From a bacterium (GTDB lineage Bacteria; Myxococcota_A; UBA9160; UBA4427), in contig JANSYR010000012.1 of the NCBI GenBank assembly GCA_024742285.1, positions 100,260-164,259 on the forward strand: a stretch of 64,000 nucleotides of DNA, in the 5' to 3' direction. The first letter of the stretch is position 1; the number at the start of each line of letters is the position of its first letter. The position numbers and the translations under genes were made by a program. The notes under the pieces were generated by a model. It was not told where the DNA came from, did no database searches, and saw nothing but the letters and a program-made list of their open reading frames with translations. Positions 17,634 through 37,645 of this stretch are shown piece by piece.

Positions 17634-20600
17634 CTAGAACGTGCCCACGATGTTGAAGAAGAAGCCGTGGTGGTCGTAGGAGAGGTCCGTCAGGTCTTCC
17701 GAGAAGTCGGTGAAGTTGTACCCGACGCCGGCCTTCAGGTGGTCGCCGAAGTAGCGGTAGACGGCGGTGAGCGCGCCGGCGCGGCGCTCGTCGAGATCGG
17801 GGAGGGCGAGGACGCGGCCCTCGGCCATGGCTTCCCAGTCCTCGAGGAATCGCCAGTCGAGGCGCACGATCCCGAGGTGCGCGTCGTTGTCGAAATAGTC
17901 CGGGTCCTCGCGGTCGAGGCTGACCTGGCTCAGCCGGTAGGCGTAGCGGGCACCGATCGTCCAGCAGTCGGTCAGGTCGTAGCTCGCATCGATCGAGGCG
18001 ATGTGGCTCTTCTGCAGGAACTGGGCGGAGGTGCCGTTCTGCCCCGTCTGGTCCGCGGTCGGGACGTTGTAGAAGTAGGTGTACTTCACGAGCGAGAAGA
18101 AGCGGTCGTGGGCCACCGGTCGGTAGGCGTAGCCGAGAATCGCCTCCGTGAAGCCGCCGTCGAAGAAGTCCCCTTCGGAGCTGTCGCTGATCGCGTGGTT
18201 GAACTTCGCGAGCAGGCGTCCGTCCTCGTCCATCTGCCACTTCAGATTGTTGCGGAAGAGCCAGGTCGACTGCTCCGAATGCGAACCATCCCCCTGCTCG
18301 GTGTCGAGGAAGACGTATTCGATCCCGCTCGAGAACTGGAGGTCCTCGCCGGAGAAGCCCCCCCGAAGGCCGGCGGCGCGGCGAGTGGTGTCCGCCGCCG
18401 TCCGTCGATCCCGCGTCTCGCCGTCCTCCCAGCTCACGCCGACCGTCCAGCGCTCGGCCGGCGCGTAGTCGACGCCGACCGCGCGAGTGAGACCGACGAC
18501 CGACGCGTGCTGGTACTGGTTCTCGGCGTAGACGCTGGCGCTGTCGCCGAATCGTGATCGTGCGCCGGTGGTCAGGCTCCCGCGTCGCGCGCTGAGCCCG
18601 TCGAAGCCACGCTCGTTGTCGAGCGCGTAGTTCATGTAGAGCTGGGTCCGTTCGTCGTGCTGGTAGTGGCTGCCCGCTCGCGCGGCCGGACCGAGGTCGC
18701 CGTGGGAGACCTCGCCGTCCAGACTGAGGCGGTCGCTGATCCGGTACTCGCCGCCGACGCCGCCGCGGTGGTTGTCGTCGCGGTCACCCGTCGATCGGAC
18801 CGTGGCCTGTCCGAAGGCATAGGCCTGGACTCGTCCGTCGCCGTCCCAGCCGACCTGGAGAACGGCATCGGTCCGGTCGCCTTCCTCCTGGGTCACCGCC
18901 ACGACCGCCGAGTCGTCGCGACGATCCTCGTGCCGCGCGCCCGCCTCGATCTGCCAGTCGTTCGCGATCGTCACCCGGACGTCGACCTCGGCGGCCGTCA
19001 GGACGAGGCCGTCCTCCTGTTCGGTATGGTCGGCCTTCGCGCGGAGCTCGATGTCTTCGCCCACGGGAAGATCGAGGGTGGCGCCGAACTGCTCGGTGTC
19101 CGTTGCGGCGTTGAGCCCCGGCGCGGAGTAGCCGGCGTCGAGCCGCTGGCCGTAGGCGGTCAAGCGGCCCCGCATCGCGGCGATCCACTCCGCGAATTCG
19201 ACGCTCGCGTCGACGCGATAGGCGTAGGCGTCGTCCTCTTCGAGGGCGGGATCCGCCGACGGCTCGAAGTCGAATCCGCCGTCGTTCGAGAGGAGCGAGG
19301 TCGAAAGGCGTCCCTCGCTCCGGCTCGCCTGGATCTTGAGCCAGGAGCCGGCACTGCGTCGCAAGGTCAGGTCGGCGGCGTAGAGGCTGGTGTCGGTCGA
19401 GGACGCCTCGTTGCGGTTGACCGTGATGCCGAGCTTCGCGAGGTCTCCAATCCAATAGTGAGCGCGCGCACCGGCGTTCAGGACGTCGACCTCGTCGAAG
19501 CCCGGTGTGTACTCGTACTGGACGACCAGCCAGACTTCGTCGCCGCTCAGTCCGTCGTTCCGGACGAGCAGGCGATCGTCGGCGATCGCCGAGAGCGGTT
19601 CGCTCAGGAGCACACGGCCCTGGATGTAGTCGACGTCGTAGTCGAGCTCGGGCTGGAGACGCGCGACCTCGCGCACGAGACCCGTTGCCTTGTCGCGGAC
19701 CTCGACGCGGAGTCGCTCGGAGCCGATCAGGAGGTCGCGGCGATTCAGGAAGTAGAGCGAGCCGCCCGTTCCGCGGAATTCCTCGCGGCTCGGGACGGTC
19801 CCGGGCTCCGAGGCGAACGCGTCGAGGAGGATCCGGCGCTCGCCGAAGCTCGTCGTGTCCGTGGACTGCGTCCGCAGGTTGGCACCGTAGAGTCCGCGCT
19901 CGACCAGGGCGAGCTCGTTGTCGTCGTAGCGAACGAGGAAGTTGCCCCAGAGCAGGTGGTCGTCGCCCTTTTCGAGCTTCACGTAGAACTTGCCGAGGGT
20001 CGGTGCGAGCTCTTCGACCGAGCTGTCGTCGCCGAAGGTCGGGAGGTGGTAGTCGGGATCGAGCCGACGGAAGAGCTGGCGAGGCGACTTGTCGAGGAAG
20101 TTCGAGAACAGGTTGTCGATCGGCCCTTCACGCGTATCGGCGCTGGCGGTGAGCTCCCAGTCCTCGCCCCACTTCCCGTTCGTGAAGAAGGCGAGCCGGC
20201 CGTTCGCCCAGTCATCGAGGTCCGGGCCGTTGGTGCCGTCGAGCGCATCCGACGGTCCGTCGCCGAGATCCGTGGACAGGGTGAGATCGGCCAGGCCGAC
20301 GAAGAACCAGTCGTTCCGTTCGAGCTCGAGGTCGCGCAGGAAGAGCTCGCCGTTGCCTTCCTCGTCGAGGACCGCCACCTCGACCGTGTGCAGACCGGCC
20401 GGCAGCAGCACTTCGCCGGTGAACTGACCGTCCGGGTTCACGGGCAGCTCGGTTCCGGCCAGCCAGACGGTGTGGCCCGCCGGGATGTCGTCGCCGGTAA
20501 TGCGCACGCTGCTGGCGCTTCCGATCGGGATGTTGCGGACGGTGCGGTCGCTCTCGCCGTAGCCGGCGAGGAGTGCTTCGCCCTCCGTGATCTCCGGCTC

Positions 20601-23600
20601 GAAGGCGTCCAGCGGGCCTTCGCCGCTCTCGCTGGGCGCCAGCCAGAGCGACTGCGGGGCCGTCTCGTCCCAGAGGCCGTCCTCGTCGTAGACGCGAAGC
20701 ACGACCGCGAGCGCTTCGAAGGGCGATCGGGCGAGGCTCGGATCCGGGGTCCAGCTGCCTTCTCCGTCGGCGTCGAGCTCGGCGATCGCGATCGGCTCGT
20801 CCCGGACCGAGTCGCCCTGCACGAAGATCCGGACCTCCGCCCGCTCGATGAAGTGCGGGTAGTTGTTGTACATGCGGAAGCGAACGGGCTCGCCGGTCGA
20901 CGTCATGGGTGTCGAGGAGAGGCTCAGTCTTCGCTCGGACTCGAGGTCGTCGAAGCGGAAGGCGATCTCTGCGTCTTCGAGCGCGACGTCGGTGCAGCGC
21001 TGGATGTCGGCCGAGTTGCGACGGGGGTCGTCGATCGGCACGCCGTCGACGGTGATGCGCATCGGGTTCAGTGAGAGCGGCGCCTGCGGCTCGAGCTCGC
21101 GCGTCAGGGCGAGGGCCTCGATGCCGTCGCGTCGATCGTCGATCGCCGGCTCGTCGTAGACCACCTGGACCCGGATGTGATCGGAATCGCCCTGGAAGAA
21201 GCCCCCGTTCACGACGTCGTCCGCGTGAACGAAGCCCCGTCCCTCGTGCTCGACCTGGTCGTCACGCAGCGTGAGCAGCTCCTGCACCCGCTCGAGCGTC
21301 CGCCGCGCCCGCGACGTCGACAGGCCGATGTCGTCGCCGTAGACATCGGCGACGCGACGCGTGAGGCCCGCGTTCCGCGTGTAGCCGATGAAGCGCACGC
21401 GCGGCGCCTCGCGCTCGGCGATCTCCGAGAGAGCGCGCTCGAGTCGGTCCAGGAAGTCCGCCGGAATCACGGCCTCGCCGTCGACGAATGCGAGCGGAGG
21501 GAGACTTCCCTCGCTCGGCTCGTGGATCCGGGTCACCGCCGTATCCGCGTCATCGTCGCTCGGACAGATCTGCGGCTCGTTCGGGAGCTCGAGGAGCGCA
21601 TCGTCGTACCAGAACTCGACCTCGATCCGTCGGTTGAGTGCGCGTCCGCGTTCCGTCGCGTTCGAGGCGACCGGCCGCGAAGCGCCGAGTCCGTCGCTGT
21701 CGACGGCGGCGGAGGGCAGATCGAGGGCGTCCATCAGCTGGAGCGCGACCCGGCGGGCGCGAGCCTTCGAGAGGGAGCGGGCGTCGCCGTAGATCCGGGC
21801 GGCGCGACCCTCGAGCGGGACGTCGTCCGTGTGGGCGATGAGCTTGATCGTCACGTTCCGGCGATCCGCCAGACGCTCGAGGGTCTCCCGGATCTGTGCG
21901 ACGAAACGGTTCGGAAGATCGGTCAGCTCGTCTCGGTACGGGAGCGGCTGGATCAGGTTGCGGATACGCGCGCGCTTCTCGTGGCCGTCGCGGTAGCGGA
22001 GCTTGCAGACGGTCTCGGTCCGGCAGACCTTGAATCGACGCACGTCCTCGCGAACCACGACGTCTTCGGTCCCCGCGACGGCGCGGGGCTCGTCGTACCA
22101 GATCTCGACCTCGACGCGACGGTTCAGCGCTCGGCCCTCGGGTGTGTCGTTCGAGGAGAGGGGCTGGGTGGCTCCGACCCAGGAGAACGAGATCGATTCC
22201 GGCGGGAGGGAGAGGGCGCGCTGGAGCAGCTCCGCCATCTCGCCGGCCCGTTCGCGCGAGAGCCCCTCGTTGTCGCCGAATCGCGCGCGGAGCTCGGCGG
22301 AGAGCGCCTGGTCGTCGGCGTGGCCCACGAGGTGGAGTCGCACGTTCTGCAGGTGCTGCATCGACGCGAGCTGGTCGCGGATCGCCGCGACCACGTCCGG
22401 CGGGAGGTCCGCGCGACCCGACTCGAAGCGGATCGGCGGGACGACGTCGGTCAGCTTGATCGTGTCGACGGCGTCCTCGAGGACCGCACGGGACTCGAGA
22501 CGGTCGGAGGTCGACTCGCGGGCCGCCTCCGGATCGGTTGCCCAGAGGGTCGACGTCTCGTCCGGCGAGAGGTGGCGCTCCCCCGACTGCCCGGCGTCCG
22601 GCGCGATCTCCGAGAGGAGGGCAGGGGGACCGGCGCCCACGTGGGGCAGGGCGCCCTGGATCGCGCTGGTCTCGTCCGCACTCGGGCGCCGCAGGGGCGT
22701 TCGGGTCGCGCGACCATCCGCGCGACGGAAGATCTCGGTCTCGATCTCGAGCTTATCGCCGTCTCGATCCTGCCAACGTTCGCGGATGAGCGCCTCGACC
22801 GCCTTCAGTCGCGCGCGAACGAGGGCTTCGTCCTCGCGGTCCGCGAGATAGGAGAGCCGCAGGATCGATTCCGCCTTCCCGAGCTCGTCGAGGAGGAGCG
22901 GCAGGCGCGATGCCCAGTGGGCGCGCAGGGTCGTTCCGCCGGGCTCGAAGACGACGTCCGAGAGGTCGAGACCGACCACGCGCTGAATCGCCGCGCCGAA
23001 GTCGAGCTCGAGCGTCTTGCCCCGCGTCGCGCGTCCGACCTTCGTCTGGCGCGTGGTCATGCGGTAGCCGCTCGGGAGCGTGCGGTCGTCGAGTTTGAGG
23101 ACGAAGTTGCTGCCTCGGCGTTCGTTCGGGACGATCGCGCAGGTGATGTGGAAGCGACCGTGGGGATCCGTGCGGACGGCGAGGCCCCGCAGCGTGACCA
23201 GCCGGACGTCGGGAAGGCCGAGCTCTCCGGGATCCTGACGGCCGTCGCGGTTCCGGTCGTCGAAGACCTTGCCGATCACGTCGGTACAGTCGAAGGTGGG
23301 GTCGGGAGAGACACGGACGGTCGCGCTCGCCTGGGCCGAGACGGCGCCGCCGCTGATCGTGTTCAGTGCGAAGGCGCGATTCGTGAACTCGCCTTCCGTC
23401 ACGCCGGCGCCGACCGCAAGGAGCAGGACGATCGTGCGCGGCGTGGAGGGGGCGAGCGTGAGGCCGGTCCACACGAGCTCGTTACCCGTCCGGACGGGCT
23501 CCGTCGGGGCGCCGTCGAGCCGCGCCGAGCCCTCGACATAGCGGAAGCCGGCGGGGAAGCGGTCGATGATCTCGAGGTCGCCGAGGGGGACGCCCAGGGT

Positions 23601-26600
23601 GTTGTTCACGACGATCTCGTAGGGGACGAGCTCGCCGCGGGTGACGTCGATCTTCGGGGTGGTCTTGCGGATCGAGACGGCGCCACCGAGGACCGGATCG
23701 AGCGGGATCGCGTTGTTGAAGATCTGATTCGTTCCGCTCGAGGCACTGCTGAGCGTCACGTGGAGCTGGTAGTTCGTGCCCGGATCGCCCGACGGCTCGC
23801 TCGGCGCGTTCGCGTCGGGGCGGACTTCGCAGTGCTGGTTCGTGGCGGGGATCGCGTCGATGCCGGCGTTCCCGGGACACGCGGGGACGGAGAAGGGCGG
23901 CGTCGAGTCGTCGCTCTGCGGCGGGATCAGGAGGGAGAGCGAATCGCTGAAGGCGCCCCCGGTCGGTATTCGGGGTTCGATCAGGTAGGCGCCGCCGTCG
24001 GGACACGACGGACCGAAGACCAGGTCGAATTTGTACCAGCCGCTCGTCGGGGTCACCTGGCCCTGCTGGTTCGGGTCCGCGAAGCAGCTGGAGGGAAGCA
24101 GGGTCCCCGAGCCGGCGTTGCGCATCTGGAGCGTCGCGCCGGCGACCGGGGTCCGCGCGATCGACTCGTAGATGAGTCCGTTCGGCGTCACCGGCAGGTT
24201 CAGGTCGGTCGCGAGTCCGCCCGAGGCGAGTACGATCGCGGTGATCTCCTGCTGCCCGTCGGTGTAGGGCGATACGGTCGCGCCCATCGACGCGGCATTC
24301 ACCCCCGCCCCCGGCGCCCGGAAGCGCACTGCGTAGGTGTCGGGGCTCAGGTCGTTCGGCGGGATCGCCCGGAATACCCAGGCGCCGTTCGTATCGGTCG
24401 TCGCGGTCTGGATCGTCGCGCCGTTGCGCACGAGCTCGACCGTCCAGCCGGCCAGCGCGTCGTCGGTCGGGCCGCCGTTCACGTCGTCGAAGTCCTGGTC
24501 GTGCCAGACGCTGCCGCTCAGGGTGCCGACGCCGGGCGTACCGCCGACGGTGATGGTGACGCTGGCGTTCGCCATGCCCGCGGCGCCCCAGGTGACGTCG
24601 GCGGTGTTGGTGATCGGCGTGCCCATGAGGGCGGTGATCACGACCTGGAAGCGCAGCGTGACCACGCCGCCGACCGCGAGGTCGCCGTAGGTGGCGCCGT
24701 AGTCCGCCGTCAGGAGGGCACCGCCGCCGTCGACGATGCCGGCGGTCGCGCCATTCATCGTGGCGGAGCCGGGGACGTAGGTCGTGCCCGCCGGGATCGG
24801 ATCGGTCACGACGACGTTCATCGCCGGGGCGCTGCCCACGTTGCGGACCGTGACGAGATACTCGAGCGTGCCCCCGGTCAGCGCCGGACCGCCGCCGACG
24901 ACGCTCACCTGCTTCGCGATGGTGACCTGCTCGGCGCCGCCGATCACGACGACCGTCGGCTCGGGTCCCGTCGCGGGATTCCCGTCGCCATCCGTCAGCG
25001 TGGGAGGCAGCTCGTCGGTCGTGACGCGGGCCTGGTTGCTGATGATCCCGCCGACGGGCGCCGTCCCCTCGACGTCGAGATCGAACGTGACGACCGCGTT
25101 CTCACCCGGCGCGATCACCCCCGCGCCCGCGATGGGGAGCGGCGGCGTGAGGCCCGACGAAGCGATCGGGAGGCCCCCGGGCTCGGCGAGCGGACCGTCC
25201 GCGCCCGGCGGGTCGGTCACGGCGAGGCCGTTCAGCGTCGTAGAGCCGAGGACGTAGTCGGTGTAGGTCGGGATCGCGTCGAAGAGTGCGACCTGGGTCG
25301 CGGGGACCGCGCCGTCGTTGTAGACCGTGATCGTGTAGCGGAGGCGATCGCCCGGATCGACCTGGCCGATCACGCCGCCGTCCGTCACGAGGACGACGCT
25401 CTTCGGCGCGAAGAGCAGCGGGGTGCGGCCGACGACGTCGCGGGTCGGATCGTCCGGGAGCGGCGTGCGAGGATCGTCGGAGGGCTGGTCGATCACGTTC
25501 GCGACCGGTGCGCTCACGAAAGCCTGGTTCGCGATGACCGTACCGTCGAGGACACCGGCGTCGACGAGGACCTCGAACACGATCGTCGCGACGTTGTCCG
25601 CCGTCGGCGAGGTGTCGGCGCGCATCGCTCCCGGCGTCGGGTCCTCGGGCGCATTCAGCAGGATGCCTGCCGTGAGCGGCGAGATCCCGCCCGGTCCATC
25701 GGCCACCGGCGCGCCGTTCAGCGTCGTGCTGCCCGCCACGTACGTCGTGTTCGTGGGAATCGGGTCACGGAGGATCGCGTCGACCGCGTCGTCGGTGCCG
25801 ACGTTCTTGACGGTGATCGTGTAGCGGAGGCGCTCGCCCGCCAGGAGCTCGGCGGGGTCGCCGTCGGGATAGGCCGAGATCTTCTCCACCTGGAAGTCCG
25901 GCGCGGAGTCGATCGTCACGACCGTCGGGTCCTCGTCGCCGGCGACGAAGGGGTCGGCGGCGCCGTTCACACTCGGGTCGTCGCTCTGCGCGAAGGCCAC
26001 GTCGGCGATCGCGAGCGCCGACTGGTTCGTCGCGAGCGTCCCGTCCGGGATCGGCGTTGCGAGCGTGACGTCGAACTCGACGAGCAGGCTACCGCCCGCC
26101 GCGACCGCGAGGTCACGGACGTCCAGCAGCCCCGTGCCCGCGGCCCCGCCCGACGGATTCGTGCCGCTCGCGTCGACGCCGGCGGGCAGGGTCACGAGAA
26201 CGAGGGAGCCCGGCTCGAAGACCGGGGTCGCATTCAGCGCATCGATTTCGTCGCGGAGATCGAACCCGCTCAAGGCATTCGGCGAGCGGTTCTCGAAGGA
26301 GAGTCGGTAGCGGAGCGTGTCGCCCGGCACCGCGTTCGTGATCGGCGTGAACGCGACCGGGTCCACGACCGTCTTCTCGAAGAGGTAGTCGAGGGGATCC
26401 GTGCTGACGGTGTGGGCATCCTCGTGGTCGACGGTGCCGACGGTGCCGTCGCTGAGCGTGCGCGTGTAGACCCCACGACCGGCATTCGTCGACGCGTCGT
26501 CGTACCACTCGGTCGCGCCGGCGACGTTCGTGAGCGAGACACCGGCCTGCGTGTCGCCGTCGAGCTGTGCGCGATAGGTGACGATCAGGCGTTCGTCTTC

Positions 26601-27581
26601 GGCGATCACCGAAGCCGCCGAGAGCATCGTCAGCTCGAGCTCGCACGTCGGCGCTCCCGCGTACGCGCGCGTGTAGTCCACGCCCTCGACGAGGGGACCC
26701 TTCCCGGGGACCGGCGTGACGCCGTCGGCCGCGAAGACCCGGGCCGAGAGGATCTCGGGCGGGACGTCGCAGAGGCCGCCGGTCGCGCCGTCGGGGAGGA
26801 CGTCGAGCAGGGTGGCGTTCCAGGCGTCGTTCGGCCCGGTGTTCTGGACGTCGAGGGTGAAGGTCCCGGGCTGGGCGAGGGTGAGCGTCGCCGGCCCGGT
26901 CTTCGTCATCTCGAGGACCGGCGGGACGAGCGCGAACTCGGTCTCGAGGTCCGCCGTGTTGACGACGCCACCCTCGCGGGTGATGAACTCGCCGACCGGG
27001 TCGCCGCTCGGGTCGAGGAAGCTGAGCCCGAGAGTGTAGGTCTTGCCGCCGATCGTGAACGTCGTCGGATCCGGCGCTTCGAAGAAGATCACGCGGTCGG
27101 TACAGCCCTCTCCGGGCGGCGTCGGATAGGGACAGGGGTCGAGGTTGTTCGGCGTCTCCTCGTGGGTGAACGAGAAGGTGAAGGTGAGCGGACCGGTCGG
27201 GACGCCGTCGACGTCGAACTCGAGCACGAAGTCGAGATCGACCGACGTGAGGGACGGATCGGGGACCGTGAAGTTCCGGTGCGCGAAGTCGGCGACCGGG
27301 AACTGGTTCGGGTCCGGGATCGTGATCGTGACGTCGTAGCCACTCTGCGGAAACGCCCCGCCCCAGCTGATGCTCGAGGTCGGCACGCCGTTCGTGATCG
27401 CGGGATCGCCGGGCTGGACGCCGGGGACGTTGTCCTGGGCGTTCCGCCAGGAGGCGGTGGCCGAGTTGAAGGTGACGACCTGAGCGGCCGCGGTCCCGGG
27501 GAGCGACAACAGGACGATCGCGGCCAGGGTGCGCAACACCCTGCCGAATCTCCCGGCGCTTCTCCGTTCCCACGTTCGCAT
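17634..27581 (-). CDS. Giant surface protein: DUF11 repeats, OmpA-like modules, outer-membrane barrel
   Basis: A 3315-aa exported protein. Residues 1-33 are a signal peptide (cleavage after TAAA). Residues 35-205 resemble choice-of-anchor-type domains (FTIGGKTYTLGLSF). From about 220 to 1420 come at least six DUF11-like Ig modules (for example LRYTITVKNVGTDDAVDAIL, RYTITVYNDGAVPATQVALF) and SdrD-like domains near 1020 and 1430. OmpA-like modules follow: a degenerate one (about 1534-1612) and three with LSxxRA helices (about 1707-1829, 1874-1992, 2024-2144), expected to bind peptidoglycan. From about 2424 alternating strands form a barrel ending in NIVGTF; the C-terminal Phe fits BAM insertion. 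I choose the ATG at 27581 because the possible ribosome binding site GGAACGAGAG lies just upstream; a GTG at 27599 falls inside that element. The leader has a c-di-GMP riboswitch. It is probably an adhesin or the outer part of the upstream motor complex. Confidence 0.9.
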   Translation of the reverse strand: MRTWERRSAGRFGRVLRTLAAIVLLSLPGTAAAQVVTFNSATASWRNAQDNVPGVQPGDPAITNGVPTSSISWGGAFPQSGYDVTITIPDPNQFPVADFAHRNFTVPDPSLTSVDLDFVLEFDVDGVPTGPLTFTFSFTHEETPNNLDPCPYPTPPGEGCTDRVIFFEAPDPTTFTIGGKTYTLGLSFLDPSGDPVGEFITREGGVVNTADLETEFALVPPVLEMTKTGPATLTLAQPGTFTLDVQNTGPNDAWNATLLDVLPDGATGGLCDVPPEILSARVFAADGVTPVPGKGPLVEGVDYTRAYAGAPTCELELTMLSAASVIAEDERLIVTYRAQLDGDTQAGVSLTNVAGATEWYDDASTNAGRGVYTRTLSDGTVGTVDHEDAHTVSTDPLDYLFEKTVVDPVAFTPITNAVPGDTLRYRLSFENRSPNALSGFDLRDEIDALNATPVFEPGSLVLVTLPAGVDASGTNPSGGAAGTGLLDVRDLAVAAGGSLLVEFDVTLATPIPDGTLATNQSALAIADVAFAQSDDPSVNGAADPFVAGDEDPTVVTIDSAPDFQVEKISAYPDGDPAELLAGERLRYTITVKNVGTDDAVDAILRDPIPTNTTYVAGSTTLNGAPVADGPGGISPLTAGILLNAPEDPTPGAMRADTSPTADNVATIVFEVLVDAGVLDGTVIANQAFVSAPVANVIDQPSDDPRTPLPDDPTRDVVGRTPLLFAPKSVVLVTDGGVIGQVDPGDRLRYTITVYNDGAVPATQVALFDAIPTYTDYVLGSTTLNGLAVTDPPGADGPLAEPGGLPIASSGLTPPLPIAGAGVIAPGENAVVTFDLDVEGTAPVGGIISNQARVTTDELPPTLTDGDGNPATGPEPTVVVIGGAEQVTIAKQVSVVGGGPALTGGTLEYLVTVRNVGSAPAMNVVVTDPIPAGTTYVPGSATMNGATAGIVDGGGALLTADYGATYGDLAVGGVVTLRFQVVITALMGTPITNTADVTWGAAGMANASVTITVGGTPGVGTLSGSVWHDQDFDDVNGGPTDDALAGWTVELVRNGATIQTATTDTNGAWVFRAIPPNDLSPDTYAVRFRAPGAGVNAASMGATVSPYTDGQQEITAIVLASGGLATDLNLPVTPNGLIYESIARTPVAGATLQMRNAGSGTLLPSSCFADPNQQGQVTPTSGWYKFDLVFGPSCPDGGAYLIEPRIPTGGAFSDSLSLLIPPQSDDSTPPFSVPACPGNAGIDAIPATNQHCEVRPDANAPSEPSGDPGTNYQLHVTLSSASSGTNQIFNNAIPLDPVLGGAVSIRKTTPKIDVTRGELVPYEIVVNNTLGVPLGDLEIIDRFPAGFRYVEGSARLDGAPTEPVRTGNELVWTGLTLAPSTPRTIVLLLAVGAGVTEGEFTNRAFALNTISGGAVSAQASATVRVSPDPTFDCTDVIGKVFDDRNRDGRQDPGELGLPDVRLVTLRGLAVRTDPHGRFHITCAIVPNERRGSNFVLKLDDRTLPSGYRMTTRQTKVGRATRGKTLELDFGAAIQRVVGLDLSDVVFEPGGTTLRAHWASRLPLLLDELGKAESILRLSYLADREDEALVRARLKAVEALIRERWQDRDGDKLEIETEIFRRADGRATRTPLRRPSADETSAIQGALPHVGAGPPALLSEIAPDAGQSGERHLSPDETSTLWATDPEAARESTSDRLESRAVLEDAVDTIKLTDVVPPIRFESGRADLPPDVVAAIRDQLASMQHLQNVRLHLVGHADDQALSAELRARFGDNEGLSRERAGEMAELLQRALSLPPESISFSWVGATQPLSSNDTPEGRALNRRVEVEIWYDEPRAVAGTEDVVVREDVRRFKVCRTETVCKLRYRDGHEKRARIRNLIQPLPYRDELTDLPNRFVAQIRETLERLADRRNVTIKLIAHTDDVPLEGRAARIYGDARSLSKARARRVALQLMDALDLPSAAVDSDGLGASRPVASNATERGRALNRRIEVEFWYDDALLELPNEPQICPSDDDADTAVTRIHEPSEGSLPPLAFVDGEAVIPADFLDRLERALSEIAEREAPRVRFIGYTRNAGLTRRVADVYGDDIGLSTSRARRTLERVQELLTLRDDQVEHEGRGFVHADDVVNGGFFQGDSDHIRVQVVYDEPAIDDRRDGIEALALTRELEPQAPLSLNPMRITVDGVPIDDPRRNSADIQRCTDVALEDAEIAFRFDDLESERRLSLSSTPMTSTGEPVRFRMYNNYPHFIERAEVRIFVQGDSVRDEPIAIAELDADGEGSWTPDPSLARSPFEALAVVLRVYDEDGLWDETAPQSLWLAPSESGEGPLDAFEPEITEGEALLAGYGESDRTVRNIPIGSASSVRITGDDIPAGHTVWLAGTELPVNPDGQFTGEVLLPAGLHTVEVAVLDEEGNGELFLRDLELERNDWFFVGLADLTLSTDLGDGPSDALDGTNGPDLDDWANGRLAFFTNGKWGEDWELTASADTREGPIDNLFSNFLDKSPRQLFRRLDPDYHLPTFGDDSSVEELAPTLGKFYVKLEKGDDHLLWGNFLVRYDDNELALVERGLYGANLRTQSTDTTSFGERRILLDAFASEPGTVPSREEFRGTGGSLYFLNRRDLLIGSERLRVEVRDKATGLVREVARLQPELDYDVDYIQGRVLLSEPLSAIADDRLLVRNDGLSGDEVWLVVQYEYTPGFDEVDVLNAGARAHYWIGDLAKLGITVNRNEASSTDTSLYAADLTLRRSAGSWLKIQASRSEGRLSTSLLSNDGGFDFEPSADPALEEDDAYAYRVDASVEFAEWIAAMRGRLTAYGQRLDAGYSAPGLNAATDTEQFGATLDLPVGEDIELRAKADHTEQEDGLVLTAAEVDVRVTIANDWQIEAGARHEDRRDDSAVVAVTQEEGDRTDAVLQVGWDGDGRVQAYAFGQATVRSTGDRDDNHRGGVGGEYRISDRLSLDGEVSHGDLGPAARAGSHYQHDERTQLYMNYALDNERGFDGLSARRGSLTTGARSRFGDSASVYAENQYQHASVVGLTRAVGVDYAPAERWTVGVSWEDGETRDRRTAADTTRRAAGLRGGFSGEDLQFSSGIEYVFLDTEQGDGSHSEQSTWLFRNNLKWQMDEDGRLLAKFNHAISDSSEGDFFDGGFTEAILGYAYRPVAHDRFFSLVKYTYFYNVPTADQTGQNGTSAQFLQKSHIASIDASYDLTDCWTIGARYAYRLSQVSLDREDPDYFDNDAHLGIVRLDWRFLEDWEAMAEGRVLALPDLDERRAGALTAVYRYFGDHLKAGVGYNFTDFSEDLTDLSYDHHGFFFNIVGTF

Positions 27582-27586
27582 CACGT

Positions 27587-27637
27587 TCTCTCGTTCCACC
27601 GGGAACTTCGAGCGGGTGCGCGCGTCGGAACGAGAGA
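27587..27637 (-). promoter_or_regulatory. RBS-sequestering hairpin (probable riboswitch expression platform)
   Basis: On the minus strand TCTCTCGTTCC (27637-27627) is perfectly complementary to GGAACGAGAGA (27597-27587), an 11-bp stem with a 29-base loop. The 3' arm contains the only purine-rich ribosome binding site and ends 5 bases before the ATG at 27581. Folded, it would block translation of the giant surface protein. Confidence 0.65.
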
Positions 27638-27656
27638 GCCCTCGGAATCGGGCCTC

Positions 27657-27755
27657 GATTCGTCGGCGGTCCCGCTGTCATGGGGCCCGTGCGGGGCCCG
27701 TTAGACCGGTGACTTTGCGTCGCCACCTTTCGATGGCTTTGCCTTTTTCTGAATC
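27657..27755 (-). promoter_or_regulatory. Cyclic-di-GMP-I (GEMM-I) riboswitch
   Basis: Read on the minus strand, the RNA carries the conserved GEMM-I parts in order: A-rich AGGCAAAGCC, a GAAA-capped hairpin (CCATCGAAAGGTGG), the conserved GACGCAAAG joining segment, then CACCGGTCTAA and a G/C-rich second hairpin (CGGGCCCCGC with GCGGGACCG). GATTC and GAATC at the two ends pair to form P1. This aligns closely with the known Vibrio Vc2 aptamer. It lies in the leader of the 3315-aa surface protein gene, 75 bases before its ATG, with a ribosome-binding-site hairpin in between, so c-di-GMP is expected to control translation of that gene. Confidence 0.88.
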
Positions 27756-27821: not shown

Positions 27822-29225
27822 TCAGCTGGCCGGCAGGAAGTCGATCGGATAGACGATCGTGACGGGCGGGATGCCTTCCTTGGCGCCGAAGTCGAAGGTC
27901 TTCACGCGTTCGACGACGCGGCTGGCGAGCTCGGGCGCCTTCATGTCGGTGGACTTGACCTCGCAGAGCGAGACCGATCCGTCGGGCTCGATCACGAGAC
28001 GGAGGACGATCTGACCCCGGAGCGTGGGGTTGCTTCGCAGCGCACGGTTGTAGAGTCGGTAGAGCGCCGCCTTGTGGCGATCGAAGACGATCTGGATCTC
28101 CTCGTCCGTGCGCGACGCCGAAGGTCCACCGCCGGCGAGGGGGCGGTCACCGTTTCCGCCTCCGGTGCCGATCGAGCTGGTCGCGCGCTGGATCGCGACG
28201 CCCTCCAGACGCTCGCCGGTTCCGCCGGAGCCGCGGCTCAGCTCGGCGACGTTAATGCCACCGCTCGAACCCGCGGCCTGGGAGGCGACCATCGACCGCG
28301 TGGGCAGGTCGGCGGCAGCGCGCCCGTCATCCGTGATGCGTGCGTTCGAGCCGAGTCGATCGACGGTTTCGGTCGTCGCGAGGCCGGAGAGCTGCTCGCT
28401 GAAGGCGAGGAGGCCGCTGCTCGCGATGTCCTTCTTTCGAGCGGCCGGGCTCGACGCGCTCGCCGGGGCCGGCTCCGCCGCTTCCGCGACCGACTGGCTG
28501 TCGTTCGGCGCGACGGGCTCCTGCTCTTCACTCGGGCGGACGGGCTCCGGCTCGCGAACGGCCACGGTCGGCGGCACGGCCACGCGCTCGTCGCGGATCA
28601 GCTGGGTGAGGCGGTCCTGCTCGTCGAAGACCTCCCAGCGATCGGGAATCGGCAGATCGATCATCGGGAGAAGGAGGCCGAGCAGGAGGCTGACGAGGAG
28701 CGAGATCGCGAGGGTCTTGCGGAAACGCTCGTCGTCCTCGCCGCCGCGCGCCCAGGGCATGATCGAGGTCCGGATCGAGATCGCCCCAGGATCCCGCTCG
28801 ATCTCCCATTCGTTCTGTCGTTCCTCGACCTTGCGTTCCAGCTCGAGGATCTCGCCCGCGACCCAGTCGGCTTCGTCCTGCTTGCGCTCGATCTCGTCGA
28901 GGAGCTCCTCGCGCCGGGCCTCGACGTTCGCGATCTCCTTCTCGAAGCCTTCGATGCGAGTGCGAACGCGCTCGAGATGTCGTTCCGAATCGAGGCTCGG
29001 CTGGGACGCCTGCCAGAAGAGGTCGCTCGCGCCCAGCTCGTCGAGTTTCTCGAGAGACGAACAGACGGTCTCGAGATGGACGAATCGCGGGCGCTCCGCC
29101 TCGAGCGATTCGAGGCGTGCGTCGACCTCACGCAGGGATGCGAGCGTCGTGTCCAGGTCCGCGCGCGAGCGTCGCAGCTCGTCGCGGAGTTCCTGGCCAT
29201 GTCTTTCGTCGGCTTCTTCGATCAT
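27822..29225 (-). CDS. TonB-like energy transducer with AgmX/PglI-type C-terminal domain
   Basis: A 467-aa inner-membrane protein. Residues 1-165 are cytoplasmic and strongly coiled-coil (heptads rich in E, R and L); one membrane helix follows at about 170-187 (ISLLVSLLLGLLLPMI). A long periplasmic linker leads to a C-terminal domain (about 373-467) starting EEIQIVFDRHKAALYRLYNR and ending in VKTFDFGAKEG and a hydrophobic YPIDFLP, as in the TonB-like ends of AgmX/PglI proteins. A cytoplasmic coiled coil before the membrane helix is unusual for TonB. It follows the second ExbD gene by 18 bases, so it is probably the transducer driven by that ExbB/ExbD motor, reaching outer-membrane or surface partners. 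Confidence 0.88.
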   Translation of the reverse strand: MIEEADERHGQELRDELRRSRADLDTTLASLREVDARLESLEAERPRFVHLETVCSSLEKLDELGASDLFWQASQPSLDSERHLERVRTRIEGFEKEIANVEARREELLDEIERKQDEADWVAGEILELERKVEERQNEWEIERDPGAISIRTSIMPWARGGEDDERFRKTLAISLLVSLLLGLLLPMIDLPIPDRWEVFDEQDRLTQLIRDERVAVPPTVAVREPEPVRPSEEQEPVAPNDSQSVAEAAEPAPASASSPAARKKDIASSGLLAFSEQLSGLATTETVDRLGSNARITDDGRAAADLPTRSMVASQAAGSSGGINVAELSRGSGGTGERLEGVAIQRATSSIGTGGGNGDRPLAGGGPSASRTDEEIQIVFDRHKAALYRLYNRALRSNPTLRGQIVLRLVIEPDGSVSLCEVKSTDMKAPELASRVVERVKTFDFGAKEGIPPVTIVYPIDFLPAS

Positions 29226-29243: not shown

Positions 29244-29756
29244 CTATCGGCCGGCCAGCGCCTGCTCCTCGCTGGCCTGCATCACCGCGAGGGAGATCTT
29301 CGTGTATCCCTGTCCGGTGCACGTCGACATCACGCGCTTCACGATTTCGAAGGGGACGGATCGATCGGCGAGGACCGTGACTTCCTGACTCTGCGCGACG
29401 GCCTGGGTGCTGGTGCCGATCACGCTCTGGCGGAGGTTCTGGAGGCGCGCTGCGATCGCGGGGATCTCGACGCCGGTTTGCGAGAGGATGGCGTCGACGG
29501 TCGTCGCGACCTCTCCCTGGACCGTCACCTGCTCGGGGCTCACGAAGACGACCACGGTCTCACGCGGCTTGTCCTCGACCGTCGAGGCCGGAAGCGTGAT
29601 CTGCTTCGGCGTCTCCAGGACCTCGGTCGTGGCCGAGTTCACGAGCAGGAAGAACACCAGGATCGTGAAGACGTCCATCAGCGACGTGAGGTTCATCTTG
29701 GGGACGGCATTCGAGAGGTTGCGGGACATCCGCTTCATTCGGCGGGAGGTGTTCAC
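29244..29756 (-). CDS. ExbD/TolR family protein (membrane Asp present)
   Basis: A 170-aa single-span inner-membrane protein of the proton-driven ExbB/ExbD and TolQ/TolR motors. The membrane helix LTSLMDVFTILVFFLLVNSA keeps the essential Asp (Asp28), the residue that carries protons in ExbD. The rest is a small periplasmic domain. It overlaps the preceding ExbD gene by 4 bases, so translation is coupled. The pair contrasts with the upstream ExbD copy, which has Asn at the same site. Having one TolQ-like and two TolR-like proteins matches the AglR-AglQ-AglS motor of Myxococcus gliding, which is why I compare this cluster to it. Confidence 0.92.
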   Translation of the reverse strand: MNTSRRMKRMSRNLSNAVPKMNLTSLMDVFTILVFFLLVNSATTEVLETPKQITLPASTVEDKPRETVVVFVSPEQVTVQGEVATTVDAILSQTGVEIPAIAARLQNLRQSVIGTSTQAVAQSQEVTVLADRSVPFEIVKRVMSTCTGQGYTKISLAVMQASEEQALAGR

Positions 29757-30283
29757 GGCGCGTCTCCGATCGAGATGTCGGTGAAGAGCGCGACTCGCAT
29801 GGGCTGCTCCTCGGCGTCCTCCGGCATGTCGGACGTGTCCGCCACGACCTCGCCGTAACCGTCGAGGGAGGCACTCCGGACGGCGTCCATCACCTGGATC
29901 AGGTGGTCGTATTCGACCTGCGGCTCGAGGAGGACGGAGGCCTGCGTCGAGTCGGGATGATCCCGCTTGAGAGAGACCGCCAACTCCTTGAGCGTCAAGA
30001 GGTCGTAGGCGTCTTCGACCATCGGGATCGTCGCGATCGTCACGTTCCCGTTCGTGATCTCGAGCCCGGCGTCCCGGACGATCACCTCGATCCGGAACTC
30101 GGGCGTATCCGATTCCGGGCCGCCCTGGCTCGACGGCATGTCGAGCTCGACGATCGTGATCCGCGAGAAGACGGCCGTGATCAGCAGGAACGGGACGAGC
30201 ACCACCATCAGGTTGAGGAAGGTGGTCATGTCCAGCTCCGAGGGCTGGGCGTTCGCGCGTCTGTAGTGATGACGTCGCGTCAC
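29753..30283 (-). CDS. ExbD/TolR family protein with Asn in place of the membrane Asp
   Basis: A 176-aa single-span protein of the ExbD/TolR family. The membrane helix is MTTFLNLMVVLVPFLLITAVF; Asn24 lies where ExbD, TolR and MotB have the proton-carrying Asp. The periplasmic part is of normal size and continues with RITIVELDMPSS, typical of this ExbD subgroup. It probably serves as a structural half of a mixed ExbD dimer with the next gene product, which keeps the Asp. It starts 5 bases after the ExbB stop and overlaps the next ExbD by 4 bases. Alternative: it alone could use a nearby acid such as Asp18, at the membrane edge. Confidence 0.9.
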   Translation of the reverse strand: MTRRHHYRRANAQPSELDMTTFLNLMVVLVPFLLITAVFSRITIVELDMPSSQGGPESDTPEFRIEVIVRDAGLEITNGNVTIATIPMVEDAYDLLTLKELAVSLKRDHPDSTQASVLLEPQVEYDHLIQVMDAVRSASLDGYGEVVADTSDMPEDAEEQPMRVALFTDISIGDAP

Positions 30284-30288
30284 GGTGT

Positions 30289-30939
30289 TCAGGCCTCCAC
30301 GCGTCGCTTCGAGCTCGTCGAGATCACGTTGAGGGCCTTGACCGAAGCCATCTCGAGGCCGTTGATGATCTCCGTCGTCTTGGCGACGAGGACCTGGTTC
30401 GTGATCAGGAGCGGGATCGCGACGATGAGACCGAAGGCCGTCGTGTTCATCGCGACCGAGATGCTCGCGGAGAGCAGATCCGCTTTCTCCGCCGGGTTCG
30501 CGTTCGCGACCGCGGTGAACGCCGAGATCAGGCCCATGATCGTTCCGAGAAGGCCCAGGAGGGTCGCGATGTTGGAGGCGAGCGCCACGTAGGGCGTCCG
30601 CTTCTCGAGGCTCGGGATGATCTCCATCATCCGCTCCTCCATCGCGATCTCGATGTCCTCACGTCGCCGGACGACGCCCTGGAGGTCGAGGCCCATGTTG
30701 AGCAGGCGGCCGACCGTGGACTCGTCCTGGCTGGTCAGCTCGCGGGCGCGATCGAAGTCGCCGTCGACGAGGGCGGGCTCGACCTGGGACCAGACGTCGC
30801 GGTTGCGCGCCGTGACCTGGGAGAGGGTGACGTAGCGCTCGATGGCGATCGCGGCACCCACCGCGAAGACCACGAGGATCGGGTACATGAAGGGGCCGCC
30901 GGTCAAGAAGAATCCGACGATCGAGTAGAACGTATCCAT
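30289..30939 (-). CDS. MotA/TolQ/ExbB proton channel family protein
   Basis: A 216-aa inner-membrane channel protein. Three membrane segments are visible: about 10-32 (FFLTGGPFMYPILVVFAVGA), about 117-142 (YVALASNIATLLGLLGTIMG) and about 160-185 (AMNTTAFGLIVAIPLLITNQ), with a cytoplasmic helical domain between the first two. LLGLLGTIMGLISAF and AMNTTAFGLIVAIP are the family signatures, including the Thr residues lining the proton path. With the two ExbD genes it would form the motor that turns proton flow into force on the TonB-like protein or the periplasmic TPR proteins. Confidence 0.95.
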   Translation of the reverse strand: MDTFYSIVGFFLTGGPFMYPILVVFAVGAAIAIERYVTLSQVTARNRDVWSQVEPALVDGDFDRARELTSQDESTVGRLLNMGLDLQGVVRRREDIEIAMEERMMEIIPSLEKRTPYVALASNIATLLGLLGTIMGLISAFTAVANANPAEKADLLSASISVAMNTTAFGLIVAIPLLITNQVLVAKTTEIINGLEMASVKALNVISTSSKRRVEA

Positions 30940-31338: not shown

Positions 31339-31959
31339 CTACTGCGACGCCCGTAGTTCGAGATCGGCGATCCAGATGGCGACCTGAGGGTCTTCGGGGA
31401 CGATCTCCTGGTAGCGTCGATAGTGGGCGAGGGCGCACCGGGCGTCGTCGAGGAAGAGGTCGCAGAGGATGCCCAGGTTGCGGTGCGCAGGATGGAAGTC
31501 GGAATAGAGCGCGATCGCTCGTTCGTAGCTCTCGCGCGACGCCTCGAGTCGGCCGAGCTTCCGGTAGACGAGACCCAGCTCGTTGTGTGCGACGACGTGG
31601 CGCGGGTGGAGCGCGATCGCCTGAAGCAGGGCGCGCTCCGCGTCCTCGAATCGCTCGGCGCGCCGGAGGGCGATCGCGAGGTTCACGCGCGGGGTTGCGC
31701 GCTCGGGAAGCGCTTCTGCCGAGGCCTCGAGGGCGGCGATCGCCGCGTCGAGATCGTCGCCGGCGAGGGAATCGAGCGCTTCACGGAATCGTGCGCGTTC
31801 GCCGAGTCCGACACCGCCGGATTCGGTCAGCCGGAAGCCGTCGTCCGTCCGGACGAGCGTGCCGCCCGAACCCCCGGTGCACGCGATCGTGAAGGAAACA
31901 ACGACGCCGACCAGCAGGAGGAGTGCAGGCAGGCGGCGGAACGGATGCGTCGGGCTCAT
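31339..31959 (-). CDS. TPR-repeat lipoprotein
   Basis: A 206-aa envelope lipoprotein. The signal ends in FTIAC (lipid-modified Cys27), followed by a Gly/Ser/Thr linker. Residues about 55-200 contain three to four tetratricopeptide repeats (ATPRVNLAIALRRAERFEDA, VVAHNELGLVYRKLGRLEAS, FHPAHRNLGILCDLFLDDA). Such small TPR lipoproteins act as assembly or docking factors, for example AglT/GltE in Myxococcus gliding. It overlaps the 1075-aa TPR lipoprotein gene by 4 bases and is followed by the small exported protein. Confidence 0.88.
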   Translation of the reverse strand: MSPTHPFRRLPALLLLVGVVVSFTIACTGGSGGTLVRTDDGFRLTESGGVGLGERARFREALDSLAGDDLDAAIAALEASAEALPERATPRVNLAIALRRAERFEDAERALLQAIALHPRHVVAHNELGLVYRKLGRLEASRESYERAIALYSDFHPAHRNLGILCDLFLDDARCALAHYRRYQEIVPEDPQVAIWIADLELRASQ

Positions 31960-34900
31960 CGTTCGACCTCCTCGCTCGTTTCCTCGACGGACGCCGTCGA
32001 CGGCGCTCCGCTCGCGGGGGCGATCGCTGCGGGCGGCGCGGGGGCGACGTCGGGCGACGCGGCTTCGTCTCCGGGCGTGACGAGCTCGTCCTCGGTCGGC
32101 GCCTCGACCTCGGCGAGGACCGCGGGCTCCTCGGCCTCGGCCTCGGTCGGCGTCGGCACGGCCTCGCGGAGCGGTGTGCGATAGACGTACCCGTCGAGGG
32201 ACTCGAGCGGGCCGGTGCTCATCTCCTGCTTCGCGTAGCGACCAGGAGAGACCTCGGCGAGTCGGGAGAGGCTGCGTTCGATCCAGGCGTTCGCGAGACC
32301 GGTCCGGGCCAGCTCGAGGTTCTTTTCGTGGAGAGAGATGGTCCGCTCCTCGAAAGGGAAGGCCTGCTCTTCGAGCATGTCGTCGTAGTCGAGGCGGTCT
32401 CCACCCGAGAGATCGGCAGGGCGCTCCGACTCGACGAGGGCACGGCCGAATTCGCCGTAGGCTTCGGCGATGTAGAAGGTCGCCGCCGCGGTGACGTCGC
32501 CCACGCCGTAGTCCACCAGCGCTTCGAAGTCCGCCACGACCTGCTCGAGGCTTCGCTTCTTGCGCGCGAGACTCCGGTCGAAGGGCTGGTCCAGCTCGAT
32601 CACCGCGTAGCGATCGAAGCCGGGCTCGACGAGCTCGAGAGCGGCCTTCGCGGCGAGCCCGCGGACGACGGGCGTACGATCCGATCCCGCCTTCGCATCG
32701 AGTGCGACGACGTGCCGGAGTGCTTCGCTCCGCTCGCGCGATTCTTTCAGCTTGCCGTGAATCTCTGCCATCTTGAAACGTGTTACGACCAGTCGTTCCA
32801 GCGGGTCGGTGTATTCCGTCACAAGAACCCGGAGAATGTCGAGGGCTCGACGCAGCTCGCCGGCATCTTCGTGCAGCGCTGCGGCAGTCGTGAGCGCTTC
32901 GGCTCGTTCCTCGGAGGTTTCGGCGCCGTCGGCGACACGTACGTACTCGACGGCGGCACTCGAGAGGTCACCCTCGGAGCGCCGTACGAACGCCATCTGG
33001 CGCGTGACGTCACGCTGAAGCACGTGGTCGGGATGATCGACACGGAAGGCTTCGAGCACCCCGGCGGCAGCGCCCCAGTCCTCGAGGGCGATCAGCGCGG
33101 CCGCCGCATCGTACTCGGCCATCGGTCGGATCGTCGAGTCGGGCGCGACCGCCGCGATCCGGAGGAAGTGGTCCGCGGCTGCCTTCGAGTCGCCAGCGAC
33201 CTTCGCGATCTCGCCCTGCTTGTAGACGGCGGCCGCGAGGTTGTCCGTCACGTCCTCGTCTTCGGGAAGCGCGAGCTCGGTCACGCGCAGGTAGGCGCGC
33301 TCTGCTTCCTCGAAGAGCTCGCTGTCGAAGGAGGCGTGCGCGATCGTGAGCCATGCGCCTCGGAGCGTCTTCTGCTCGGTGTCCGGGTAGTCCTCGACGA
33401 GTCGCGTCGCATGCCGAATGGCCTCGGCGTGGTCGCCCAGCGTATAGAGATCGTCGGCGGCCGCGCCCAGGACGAGGACCGCTCGCTCGTCCGCGGGGAA
33501 GGTCGTCGCGAACTGCAGGGAGGTTCCGACGACCGCACGAAGCGCGGGCTCCGATTCCTCGGGGTTCGTGCCTGCGTGCGCCTCGCGGCGGGCGAAGACG
33601 GCGGCGTAGCCGGCATCCGTCGCCTCGTCGTGGGCGGGGTATCCGTAGGCCACGGTCTCGAACGCCTCGGCGGCCTCCGTGAAGCGCTGGTCCTCGAGGA
33701 GGAGGTCGGCGAAGCGTCGATGGAGGCCCGGGGTCGCCGGGTTCTCGGGGAACGAGACGAGATACGTTCGGTACCAGCGGCTCGCCTCCGCGAAGTGTTC
33801 GGGGCGTCGCGGGGCCTCGTCGTCTTCCTGGTAGAGCGCATGCGCGTGCGTGGCGAGGTCGCGCAGGTTCGTCTCGAGATGGGCGAGGGTCTCCGTGGCG
33901 GCCTCGATGTCATGGTGCTCCCAGTAGGGAGAGGACACGCCGTAGGACTCGGCGAAGTCACGCTTGGCCTCGAGCACGAGTCGGGGGAAGTCGCCGGCCT
34001 CGTAGATCTCGACGATTCGCATGCCGAAGCGCGGCGCCATCGCGTGGTTCGGATAGCGCGCCGTGAAGGCCTGGTAGGTCTGCGCGGCGTCGGCATAGCG
34101 GAGCTTGTCGAGGAAGAACTCGCCCAGCTCGCGGTAGACACGGTGTTCGTAGGGACGGGAACCCTGCCCATCGAAGAACTGCGTGATGACTTCGGGCCCA
34201 CCCAGCTCGGAGAAGCAGAGGCTGAGTACCCGGAAGGTGTCCGCGACGCGCTGCGCCTCGGCTTCGTCCTCCACCTGATCGAAGTCGTAGTCGGTCGCGA
34301 CCTTGTGGTCGAGGAGCATGACGTAGCTGTGGAGCGCCTCTTCGAGCAGCATCTGCTTGTAGAGACTCCAGCCGAGCTTGTAGAGAGCGAGCTCGTAGTA
34401 GTCGGACGCCGGACCGAGCTCCACGATCGAGGAATAGGAGGACTCCGCATCGAAGAAGCGGCGGCGGACGAAGTGATACTCGCCCCGACGGAAGAGGAGC
34501 TCGTCCAGGTGGCGCGAGCCTGGTCGTTCCGCGATCAGCCGGTCCGCGACGGCGACCGCCTCGTCGACGCGTCCGAGCTCGTCGAGGGCCCGCGCCTTCT
34601 GGTAGAGCACCTGGTCGAGATACGGGTAGTCGGGATAGCGCGCGAGGATCCGGTCGTAGAGGGCGATCGCTTCGGCGGGCCCGGCGGTGTCTTCCGCGCG
34701 GACCGACGGATCGATCTCGGCGGGGTCGAGCTCTTCGTAGGCGAGTGGCTGCGCCGCGAACGTGCGGGACTCGAGCTGAGCTTCGGTCTCGCGCGGGGCG
34801 CGCTTCGTCGTTCGCGCCTCGCGTCGCGGGGTCGGCGCCGCGGCGGCAGGAACGGGTAGGGAGGCGCCCGACGGCTCGGACGTTCCGCGCGTCGCACGCG

Positions 34901-35183
34901 CCCCCAGGCTTCCGTAGGACTTCTCGAGGGCCAGGTCGGCGAGGCGTCGCATCGCTTCCGGCGTCAACGACGACTCGGGTGCCTCCGCGAGGAACTGCCG
35001 ATAGCCCTCCATCGCCTGTGCGAGACCGTCTCCGACCTCGACCTCCTCGAGGTCGGGCTGCCGTCCCTCGAGATCGGCGAGGGTGGCCTCTCCGCCGAGG
35101 CGGGCGCAGCCGACCGCCGAAGTCGCGGCCAGCAGGAACACGAGGGGGCCCGCTCGGAGCGATGGACGAACGGGGCGGCTCAT
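31956..35183 (-). CDS. Large TPR-repeat lipoprotein (1075 aa)
   Basis: A lipoprotein with lipobox SAVGC (Cys26) and a very long array of tetratricopeptide-like repeats through most of its length. Visible repeats include ALYDRILARYPDYPYLDQVL, ELFFRRGEYHFVRRR-like blocks, ADAAQTYQAFTARYPNHAMA, RYLRVTELALPEDED and ILRVLVTEYTDPLERLVVTR. The C-terminus is a low-complexity Ala/Pro/Glu/Thr-rich tail of about 80 residues (PTPTEAEAEEPAVLAEVEAP and onward), likely flexible. It is coupled by 4-base overlaps to genes on both sides. Role: probably a periplasmic scaffold between the inner-membrane motor and outer-membrane parts, as proposed for long TPR proteins of the Glt complex; inferred from context only. 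Confidence 0.88.
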   Translation of the reverse strand: MSRPVRPSLRAGPLVFLLAATSAVGCARLGGEATLADLEGRQPDLEEVEVGDGLAQAMEGYRQFLAEAPESSLTPEAMRRLADLALEKSYGSLGARATRGTSEPSGASLPVPAAAAPTPRREARTTKRAPRETEAQLESRTFAAQPLAYEELDPAEIDPSVRAEDTAGPAEAIALYDRILARYPDYPYLDQVLYQKARALDELGRVDEAVAVADRLIAERPGSRHLDELLFRRGEYHFVRRRFFDAESSYSSIVELGPASDYYELALYKLGWSLYKQMLLEEALHSYVMLLDHKVATDYDFDQVEDEAEAQRVADTFRVLSLCFSELGGPEVITQFFDGQGSRPYEHRVYRELGEFFLDKLRYADAAQTYQAFTARYPNHAMAPRFGMRIVEIYEAGDFPRLVLEAKRDFAESYGVSSPYWEHHDIEAATETLAHLETNLRDLATHAHALYQEDDEAPRRPEHFAEASRWYRTYLVSFPENPATPGLHRRFADLLLEDQRFTEAAEAFETVAYGYPAHDEATDAGYAAVFARREAHAGTNPEESEPALRAVVGTSLQFATTFPADERAVLVLGAAADDLYTLGDHAEAIRHATRLVEDYPDTEQKTLRGAWLTIAHASFDSELFEEAERAYLRVTELALPEDEDVTDNLAAAVYKQGEIAKVAGDSKAAADHFLRIAAVAPDSTIRPMAEYDAAAALIALEDWGAAAGVLEAFRVDHPDHVLQRDVTRQMAFVRRSEGDLSSAAVEYVRVADGAETSEERAEALTTAAALHEDAGELRRALDILRVLVTEYTDPLERLVVTRFKMAEIHGKLKESRERSEALRHVVALDAKAGSDRTPVVRGLAAKAALELVEPGFDRYAVIELDQPFDRSLARKKRSLEQVVADFEALVDYGVGDVTAAATFYIAEAYGEFGRALVESERPADLSGGDRLDYDDMLEEQAFPFEERTISLHEKNLELARTGLANAWIERSLSRLAEVSPGRYAKQEMSTGPLESLDGYVYRTPLREAVPTPTEAEAEEPAVLAEVEAPTEDELVTPGDEAASPDVAPAPPAAIAPASGAPSTASVEETSEEVER

Positions 35184-37075: not shown

Positions 37076-37645
37076 CTACCAGTCCGCGATCGCGACCTGC
37101 GCGCCGCCGGTCAGTGAGTCGCTGAGGGTGACGCCGACCTTCTTCGGGCCGACGGCCTTCTCTACGACGAACTCTTCGCTCGTGGCGAAGCGGCCGGTGG
37201 TGGTCCGTCGTCCTTCGACCTCGACGCGGAGCGTGTGCGCGCCCTCGCGAAGATTTCCGGTGTAGATCCGCTGGACGCCGCCGTTGCGCAGCGCTTCGAG
37301 TTCCCGGTGGGTGTAGACGTGCTGGGCGACGGGCTCGCCGTCGATCCACACGCGGGTCGCATCGACCTTCACGTCCTGGTCGGTACCGACTTCCACGAAG
37401 ACCGAGACCTGGGTGCTCGAGGGATGGAGCAACTGCTCTTCGAGCGCACGCAGCTCTGCGGCAATGGCGAGCACGTCCGACTTGATGTCCTGCACCTGCT
37501 GATCGAGGCTCTGCACGTCGGCCTTGCCGCGTGCGTCGCTGCTCCAAGTGGGAAGCGCGGCCACGAATACGAGCGCAGCCGCAATCGACGCGACGGCGAT
37601 TCGCATTCCCGCGGACCTGCTGTCGTGGTTCCGTGATCGAGGCAT
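37076..37645 (-). CDS. Exported or membrane-anchored coiled-coil protein with beta domain
   Basis: A 189-aa protein of no named family that I recognise. An N-terminal hydrophobic segment (MRIAVASIAAALVFVAALPT, residues 14-33) exports or anchors it. A short coiled coil follows (VQSLDQQVQDIKSDVLAIAA, then LRALEEQLL). Residues about 75-189 look like one Ig-like or PEGA-like beta domain (VSVFVEVGTDQDVKVDATRV, REGAHTLRVEVEGRRTTTG). The ATG at 37645 has GGAGG 9 bases upstream, so I prefer it to Met14. Similar two-part proteins sit in front of TPR/ExbB clusters; a periplasmic link role is inferred. Confidence 0.78.
   Translation of the reverse strand: MPRSRNHDSRSAGMRIAVASIAAALVFVAALPTWSSDARGKADVQSLDQQVQDIKSDVLAIAAELRALEEQLLHPSSTQVSVFVEVGTDQDVKVDATRVWIDGEPVAQHVYTHRELEALRNGGVQRIYTGNLREGAHTLRVEVEGRRTTTGRFATSEEFVVEKAVGPKKVGVTLSDSLTGGAQVAIADW

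Follow-up and report, generated by a model that had tools for sequence, protein, structure and literature searches.

The leader of the giant DUF11-OmpA surface-protein gene in the window (the whole 64,000-nucleotide stretch of DNA analysed here) is best explained as carrying a c-di-GMP-I riboswitch, most likely a translational OFF switch, for this protein of a putative ExbB/ExbD/TonB-like/TPR machine. Judged from sequence, alignment and folding, we put the probability of this reading as a whole at about 0.6.

The aptamer and its ligand type

A cmscan search of the whole window matched positions 27,753–27,662 of the minus strand to RF01051 (c-di-GMP-I) over the full length of the model (1–87 of 87), with 77.3 bits against a cutoff of 35 and an E-value of 1.9e-13, and returned no other Rfam match in the window. 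Our own covariance model, built on 31 RF01051 matches from this genome and its relatives and run with filters off, gave 90.2 bits at the window aptamer, itself one of the 31 training sequences, and 12.2 bits at the next-best stretch of the window. The aptamer is closed by P1, formed by GAUUC (27,751–27,755, minus strand) and GAAUC (27,657–27,661, minus strand), both of which are conserved in relatives. Within it lie a GAAA-capped first hairpin (27,722–27,737, minus strand), six of whose six pairs covary, the conserved joining segment GACGCAAAG, identified by sequence and alignment, and a GC-rich second hairpin (27,669–27,713, minus strand) with a CUAA...AUGAC tetraloop-receptor-like segment, identified by the Rfam match, alignment and covariation. 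Across the 31 aptamers, 98.4% of the cells in the helices were paired and 14 of 18 pairs showed changes on both sides; none of 500 shuffles reached as high a covariation score, and slid structures also scored far lower. Comparison of three closely related sequences showed that conservation begins at the 5' strand of P1, the preceding flank having diverged. The preliminary description of this DNA had listed the conserved parts of a GEMM-I RNA in order on the minus strand and had proposed a covariance-model check with RF01051; every part that it named was found by sequence and alignment, and the score lies above the threshold. Thus, as far as sequence can tell, the window RNA fits the c-di-GMP-I class on every testable feature, and we consider it very highly probable that it is a c-di-GMP-I riboswitch.

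Ligand type was read from the Vc2-numbered ligand contacts of 3IRW (PMC7288161), through which G20 corresponds to column 11 of our alignment. The window has G at the position equivalent to Vc2 G20 (27,743, minus strand), where A would point to cGAMP, and A at the position equivalent to A47 (27,716, minus strand), again the c-di-GMP type. Because both residues are of this type, and because the change A20G alone turns the selectivity of a Geobacter cGAMP riboswitch to c-di-GMP (PMC6456294), the window RNA is predicted to be of the c-di-GMP type. Among the 60 aptamers of the gene cluster, G20 is present in 59 (a regular-expression count, with four exceptions read individually) and A47 in at least 57. 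A conserved CC near the 3' end of the aptamer aligns to 27,666–27,665 in the window, the counterpart of the ligand-pairing C92 within this CC not being fixed by the alignment. That the ligand is instead cGAMP or another cyclic dinucleotide is very improbable: ligand variants do occur in the RF01051 clan, and the window RNA also passes RF03167 (c-di-GMP-I-GGC) with 61.0 bits against a cut-off of 59, but RF01051 lies much further above its own cut-off and was retained over RF03167 as the best clan family for the same stretch. Membership of the cGAMP riboswitches (GEMM-Ib), which needs A20, was rejected on the G at 27,743, and the A20 aptamers of relatives precede other genes.

Two sets of variant aptamers were observed in passing. 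The one cluster aptamer that carries A20 is a divergent copy (L069:11588–11677) that also has a changed GUGCAAUG segment, possibly reflecting an altered ligand or decay. Outside the cluster, A20 (cGAMP-type) GEMM aptamers of relatives lie before genes for small secreted proteins (L017, L018, L020, L022, L030 and L031); the three such genes tested (L017, L018 and L020) encode SLT lytic transglycosylases.

c-di-GMP is a bacterial signal for sessile versus motile life, and the genome holds 17 GGDEF and 9 EAL matches; c-di-GMP signalling is therefore present. The only other c-di-GMP-I aptamer elsewhere in the genome (G000:C1:345982–346068, equivalent to L002:1501–1587) directly precedes a gene that encodes an HDOD protein carrying an EAL-like segment, whose EAL match is below the Pfam cut-off. 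This arrangement is kept in congeners (L028 and L029), and feedback on the c-di-GMP network is a possible role.

The gene behind the window aptamer (17,634–27,581, minus strand) was defined by its open reading frame and domain matches, and encodes 3315 aa from an ATG at 27,581, 80 nt beyond the aptamer end; an alternative GTG start at 27,599 would give 3321 aa. The protein has a signal-peptide-like start, a choice-of-anchor K domain, four DUF11 domains, SdrD_B and two OmpA domains. A sub-threshold Pfam match to an OMP β-barrel makes a C-terminal β-barrel possible, and a profile search of solved structures gave no match for the C-terminus. With the RF01051 match and the c-di-GMP-type residues, the earlier view that the leader of this 3315-aa surface-protein gene holds a c-di-GMP-I aptamer is upheld. 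In most relatives the protein is split over two adjoining genes, for a DUF11 protein and then an OmpA-plus-C-terminal protein (1810 and 1834 aa in the complete examples). The window gene is a fusion, with the DUF11 and OmpA parts that most relatives encode separately joined in one frame; the congener frame likewise crosses the junction, up to the end of its contig. Antisense to the giant gene, a 2175-aa open frame (21,177–27,704, plus strand) is most likely a side effect of G+C-rich codon usage.

Recurrence of the aptamer beside a motor operon

The aptamer sits between a gene for an AgmX/GltG-like (TonB-type) protein and the gene for the secreted giant. Reading back from the aptamer, all on the minus strand, are the TonB-like energy transducer with an AgmX/PglI C-terminal domain (27,822–29,225; NCBIfam NF033768 and NF033760), two ExbD/TolR genes (29,244–29,756 and 29,753–30,283; PF02472), a MotA/TolQ/ExbB gene (30,289–30,939; PF01618) and three genes assigned by domain matches to TPR proteins (31,339–31,959; 31,956–35,183, a large protein with YbgF/BamD-like repeats; and 35,180–37,069). 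The first gene of the motor operon (37,076–37,645) encodes a 189-aa protein with an LDxQVQxIKSDVL motif common to its counterparts in relatives. The 'force-generating' character given to this envelope cluster in the preliminary description stands as a prediction from homology alone, that of ExbB, the two ExbD proteins, the AgmX/GltG-like transducer and the TPR proteins. With filters off, our covariance model gave no match in front of the motor operon of the window. No promoter-like site was found in the window between this operon and the giant gene, a result that weighs against our preferred reading.

Among relatives of this genome, the best-scoring RF01051 matches, 15 in number, immediately follow the transducer gene. 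With the transducer as query, 80 loci were collected from GTDB genomes, and our covariance model placed an aptamer 40–331 nt after the TonB-like gene in 52 of them; of the 75 loci whose downstream sequence extends for 500 nt or more, 50 had the aptamer after the transducer. The GTDB loci come partly from the same genomes as the close relatives, and the counts of 15 matches and 52 loci are therefore not independent. Most loci are labelled as Myxococcota/Deltaproteobacteria or as Gammaproteobacteria (Woeseiaceae and relatives of Steroidobacter); the few other taxon labels may be binning errors. Povalibacter uvarum and Peristeroidobacter agariperforans are cultured relatives in which the cassette is present. 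The cluster aptamers form a sublineage with the 3' end AGCGGGACCGCC, most other copies in the relatives having GGGUCGAACGGCUGCCG. The place of the aptamer after the transducer gene is thus conserved across two phyla, Myxococcota and Gammaproteobacteria. This recurring pairing of a sensor with one gene beside a motor suggests, from gene order, that the envelope machine is wired directly to the c-di-GMP signal.

A second aptamer, confirmed with Rfam, precedes the motor operon in 6 of the 47 loci with enough upstream sequence, all from gammaproteobacterial relatives (L074:1201, L092:903, L098:1182, L046:1381, L059:1491 and L084:367). The earlier statement that the surface gene has a switch which the motor genes lack therefore holds for this genome but not in general. 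At one locus, a further aptamer (L076:9209–9297) precedes a tandem second giant surface gene.

Expression platform and sign of the switch

Across relatives, the aptamer end and the start codon are mostly 51–90 nt apart. Leaders like that of the window have a strand, H, some 20–35 nt past the aptamer; H pairs with a second strand, S, that spans the presumed Shine-Dalgarno sequence (SD). In the window, H (CUCUCGUUCC; 27,627–27,636, minus strand) is the perfect complement of S (GGAACGAGAG; 27,588–27,597, minus strand) over 10 bp, a match only moderately exceptional in that 4 of 100 mono-shuffled S strands were as good. Covariation of this stem was assessed by comparing the energy of the duplex that H forms with its own S (cis) and with S of other loci (trans). 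The cis value was –25.1 kcal/mol versus –20.9 kcal/mol in trans (p = 1.3e-5), with cis better in 23 of 28 leaders; the same test on four control segments from coding regions showed no excess (p = 0.36–0.83), and in a second leader type, mostly from Woeseiaceae, the H·S excess was not significant (p = 0.18).

H can also pair with the 3' side of the aptamer. Many relatives would form GGGACCG·CGGUCCC, and the window clade GACGAAUCGAGGCCC·GGGCUCUCUCGU. The strand GACGAAUCGAGGCCC (A'; 27,650–27,664, minus strand) holds the 3' strand of P1, is predicted to pair with H when the leader folds before S is made, and may be the anti-sequestor of the window clade. In addition, CGAUUC (27,645–27,650, minus strand; conserved in L007 and L010) can replace P1 by pairing with GAAUCG at 27,661–27,656. 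Before S is made, the fold with H paired to the aptamer side (A·H) lies near the aptamer fold in predicted energy, mostly at –1 to –8 kcal/mol. The A·H duplex gave no cis-over-trans excess, because A is nearly invariant.

Since H would pair with either the aptamer side or S but not both, we propose a translational OFF switch. With c-di-GMP bound, the aptamer and P1 would keep their own 3' strand and leave H free, and the freed H would pair with S and block translation; without ligand, the 3' side of the aptamer would pair with H, S would stay open and the protein would be made. The preliminary description had the surface gene set separately by c-di-GMP and gave no direction, to which the platform adds a pointer towards translational repression. 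From the leader sequences, control at translation initiation is probable; as to its sign, the folding models incline us slightly towards OFF over ON. Thermodynamically, the case for OFF appears weak in the window's own leader. With P1 or without it, the start region there is predicted to stay closed at equilibrium (opening cost, 14.2 vs 15.6 kcal/mol), and a ligand effect would therefore have to be mainly kinetic. Over 49 leaders, mean predicted SD accessibility hardly differed between bound-like and free-like folds (0.36 vs 0.39), and we set this equilibrium measure aside as an uninformative guide to the sign of the switch.

In an ON switch, the bound aptamer would prevent the A·H hairpin, which without ligand would terminate transcription, and c-di-GMP would then raise expression of an adhesin. 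Adhesin expression is in fact often raised by c-di-GMP. A UUUU run follows the GGGACCG...CGGUCCC hairpin in several relatives (L033, L035, L037, L038 and L039), and the pilM cGAMP riboswitch of Geobacter works in this way (PMC9262584). In the window, however, H is not followed by a U-run and the minus strand lacks a terminator-like site, the U residues of some relatives (for example L035, L037 and L039) fall inside the predicted H·S stem, and termination would leave the covarying H·S stem without a role; we therefore regard an ON switch as unlikely. Less likely still is that c-di-GMP is bound but acts by way of transcript stability, Rho access or some other mechanism in place of the start-codon hairpin. 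Such a route would accord with the low accessibility predicted for the start region in both states of the window, and Vc1 of V. cholerae has no obvious terminator or anti-SD yet still regulates (PMC4744006); against it stand the compact, conserved length of the platform and the covariation of the SD-covering stem. For the translational OFF switch that we prefer, a broader reading is more tentative, and we would sooner doubt than accept it in full: that the locus is a phylum-spanning cassette in which a dedicated c-di-GMP-I translational OFF switch controls an undescribed proton-driven envelope machine at its surface effector (in some lineages at its motor operon too), rising c-di-GMP shutting the machine down as cells become sessile.

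Significance and comparison with known systems

As a member of its class the RNA is ordinary; the conserved cassette is of more interest. It ties a widespread, uncharacterised motor-plus-giant-surface-protein locus to c-di-GMP and so offers a handle on its function. If c-di-GMP does shut the locus off, a motility or active-surface machine would be likelier than a plain adhesin, and the covarying start-codon hairpin provides a concrete platform to test. In the open-licence literature we found no description of a riboswitch tied to an ExbB/ExbD/TonB-like/TPR and DUF11-OmpA cluster, an absence that is weak evidence; there, DUF11 and riboswitches came together in one review only, in which the two were unrelated.

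The motor resembles the Myxococcus Agl-Glt machinery (GltG/AgmX and GltE) and the Tol-Pal/Ton motors in its ExbB/ExbD stator-like proteins, its AgmX/GltG C-terminal domain and its TPR proteins. Its homology to Agl-Glt is partial. The giant DUF11-OmpA protein sets the present locus apart, and any part that this locus has in motility is putative. Membership of Agl-Glt was rejected on the scores for GltG (35.5 bits against a cut-off of 650) and GltE (23.9 against 225), only the model of the AgmX/PglI C-terminal domain being passed.

The aptamer shares with Vc2 and the c-di-GMP-I class a full-length match, the GAAA tetraloop, the receptor-like segment, G20 and A47, and differs in that its sublineage is linked with a single gene cluster. 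The pilM riboswitch of Geobacter metallireducens uses the same alternative pairing, in which the 3' strand of the aptamer pairs with a downstream strand to the exclusion of the aptamer; in pilM, however, cGAMP switches transcription on (PMC9262584), whereas the window has G20 and a predicted start-codon hairpin. Surface-protein genes behind such RNAs are also known: GEMM-regulated fibronectin-type-III surface proteins occur in Geobacter (PMC2996986) and the Bc2-cap c-di-GMP-I riboswitch of B. thuringiensis precedes a collagen adhesion protein gene (PMC4933901). Unlike these cases, the window protein is a DUF11-OmpA giant adjoining an ExbB/ExbD/TonB-like/TPR motor, and its expression platform appears to act on translation, more likely as an OFF switch.
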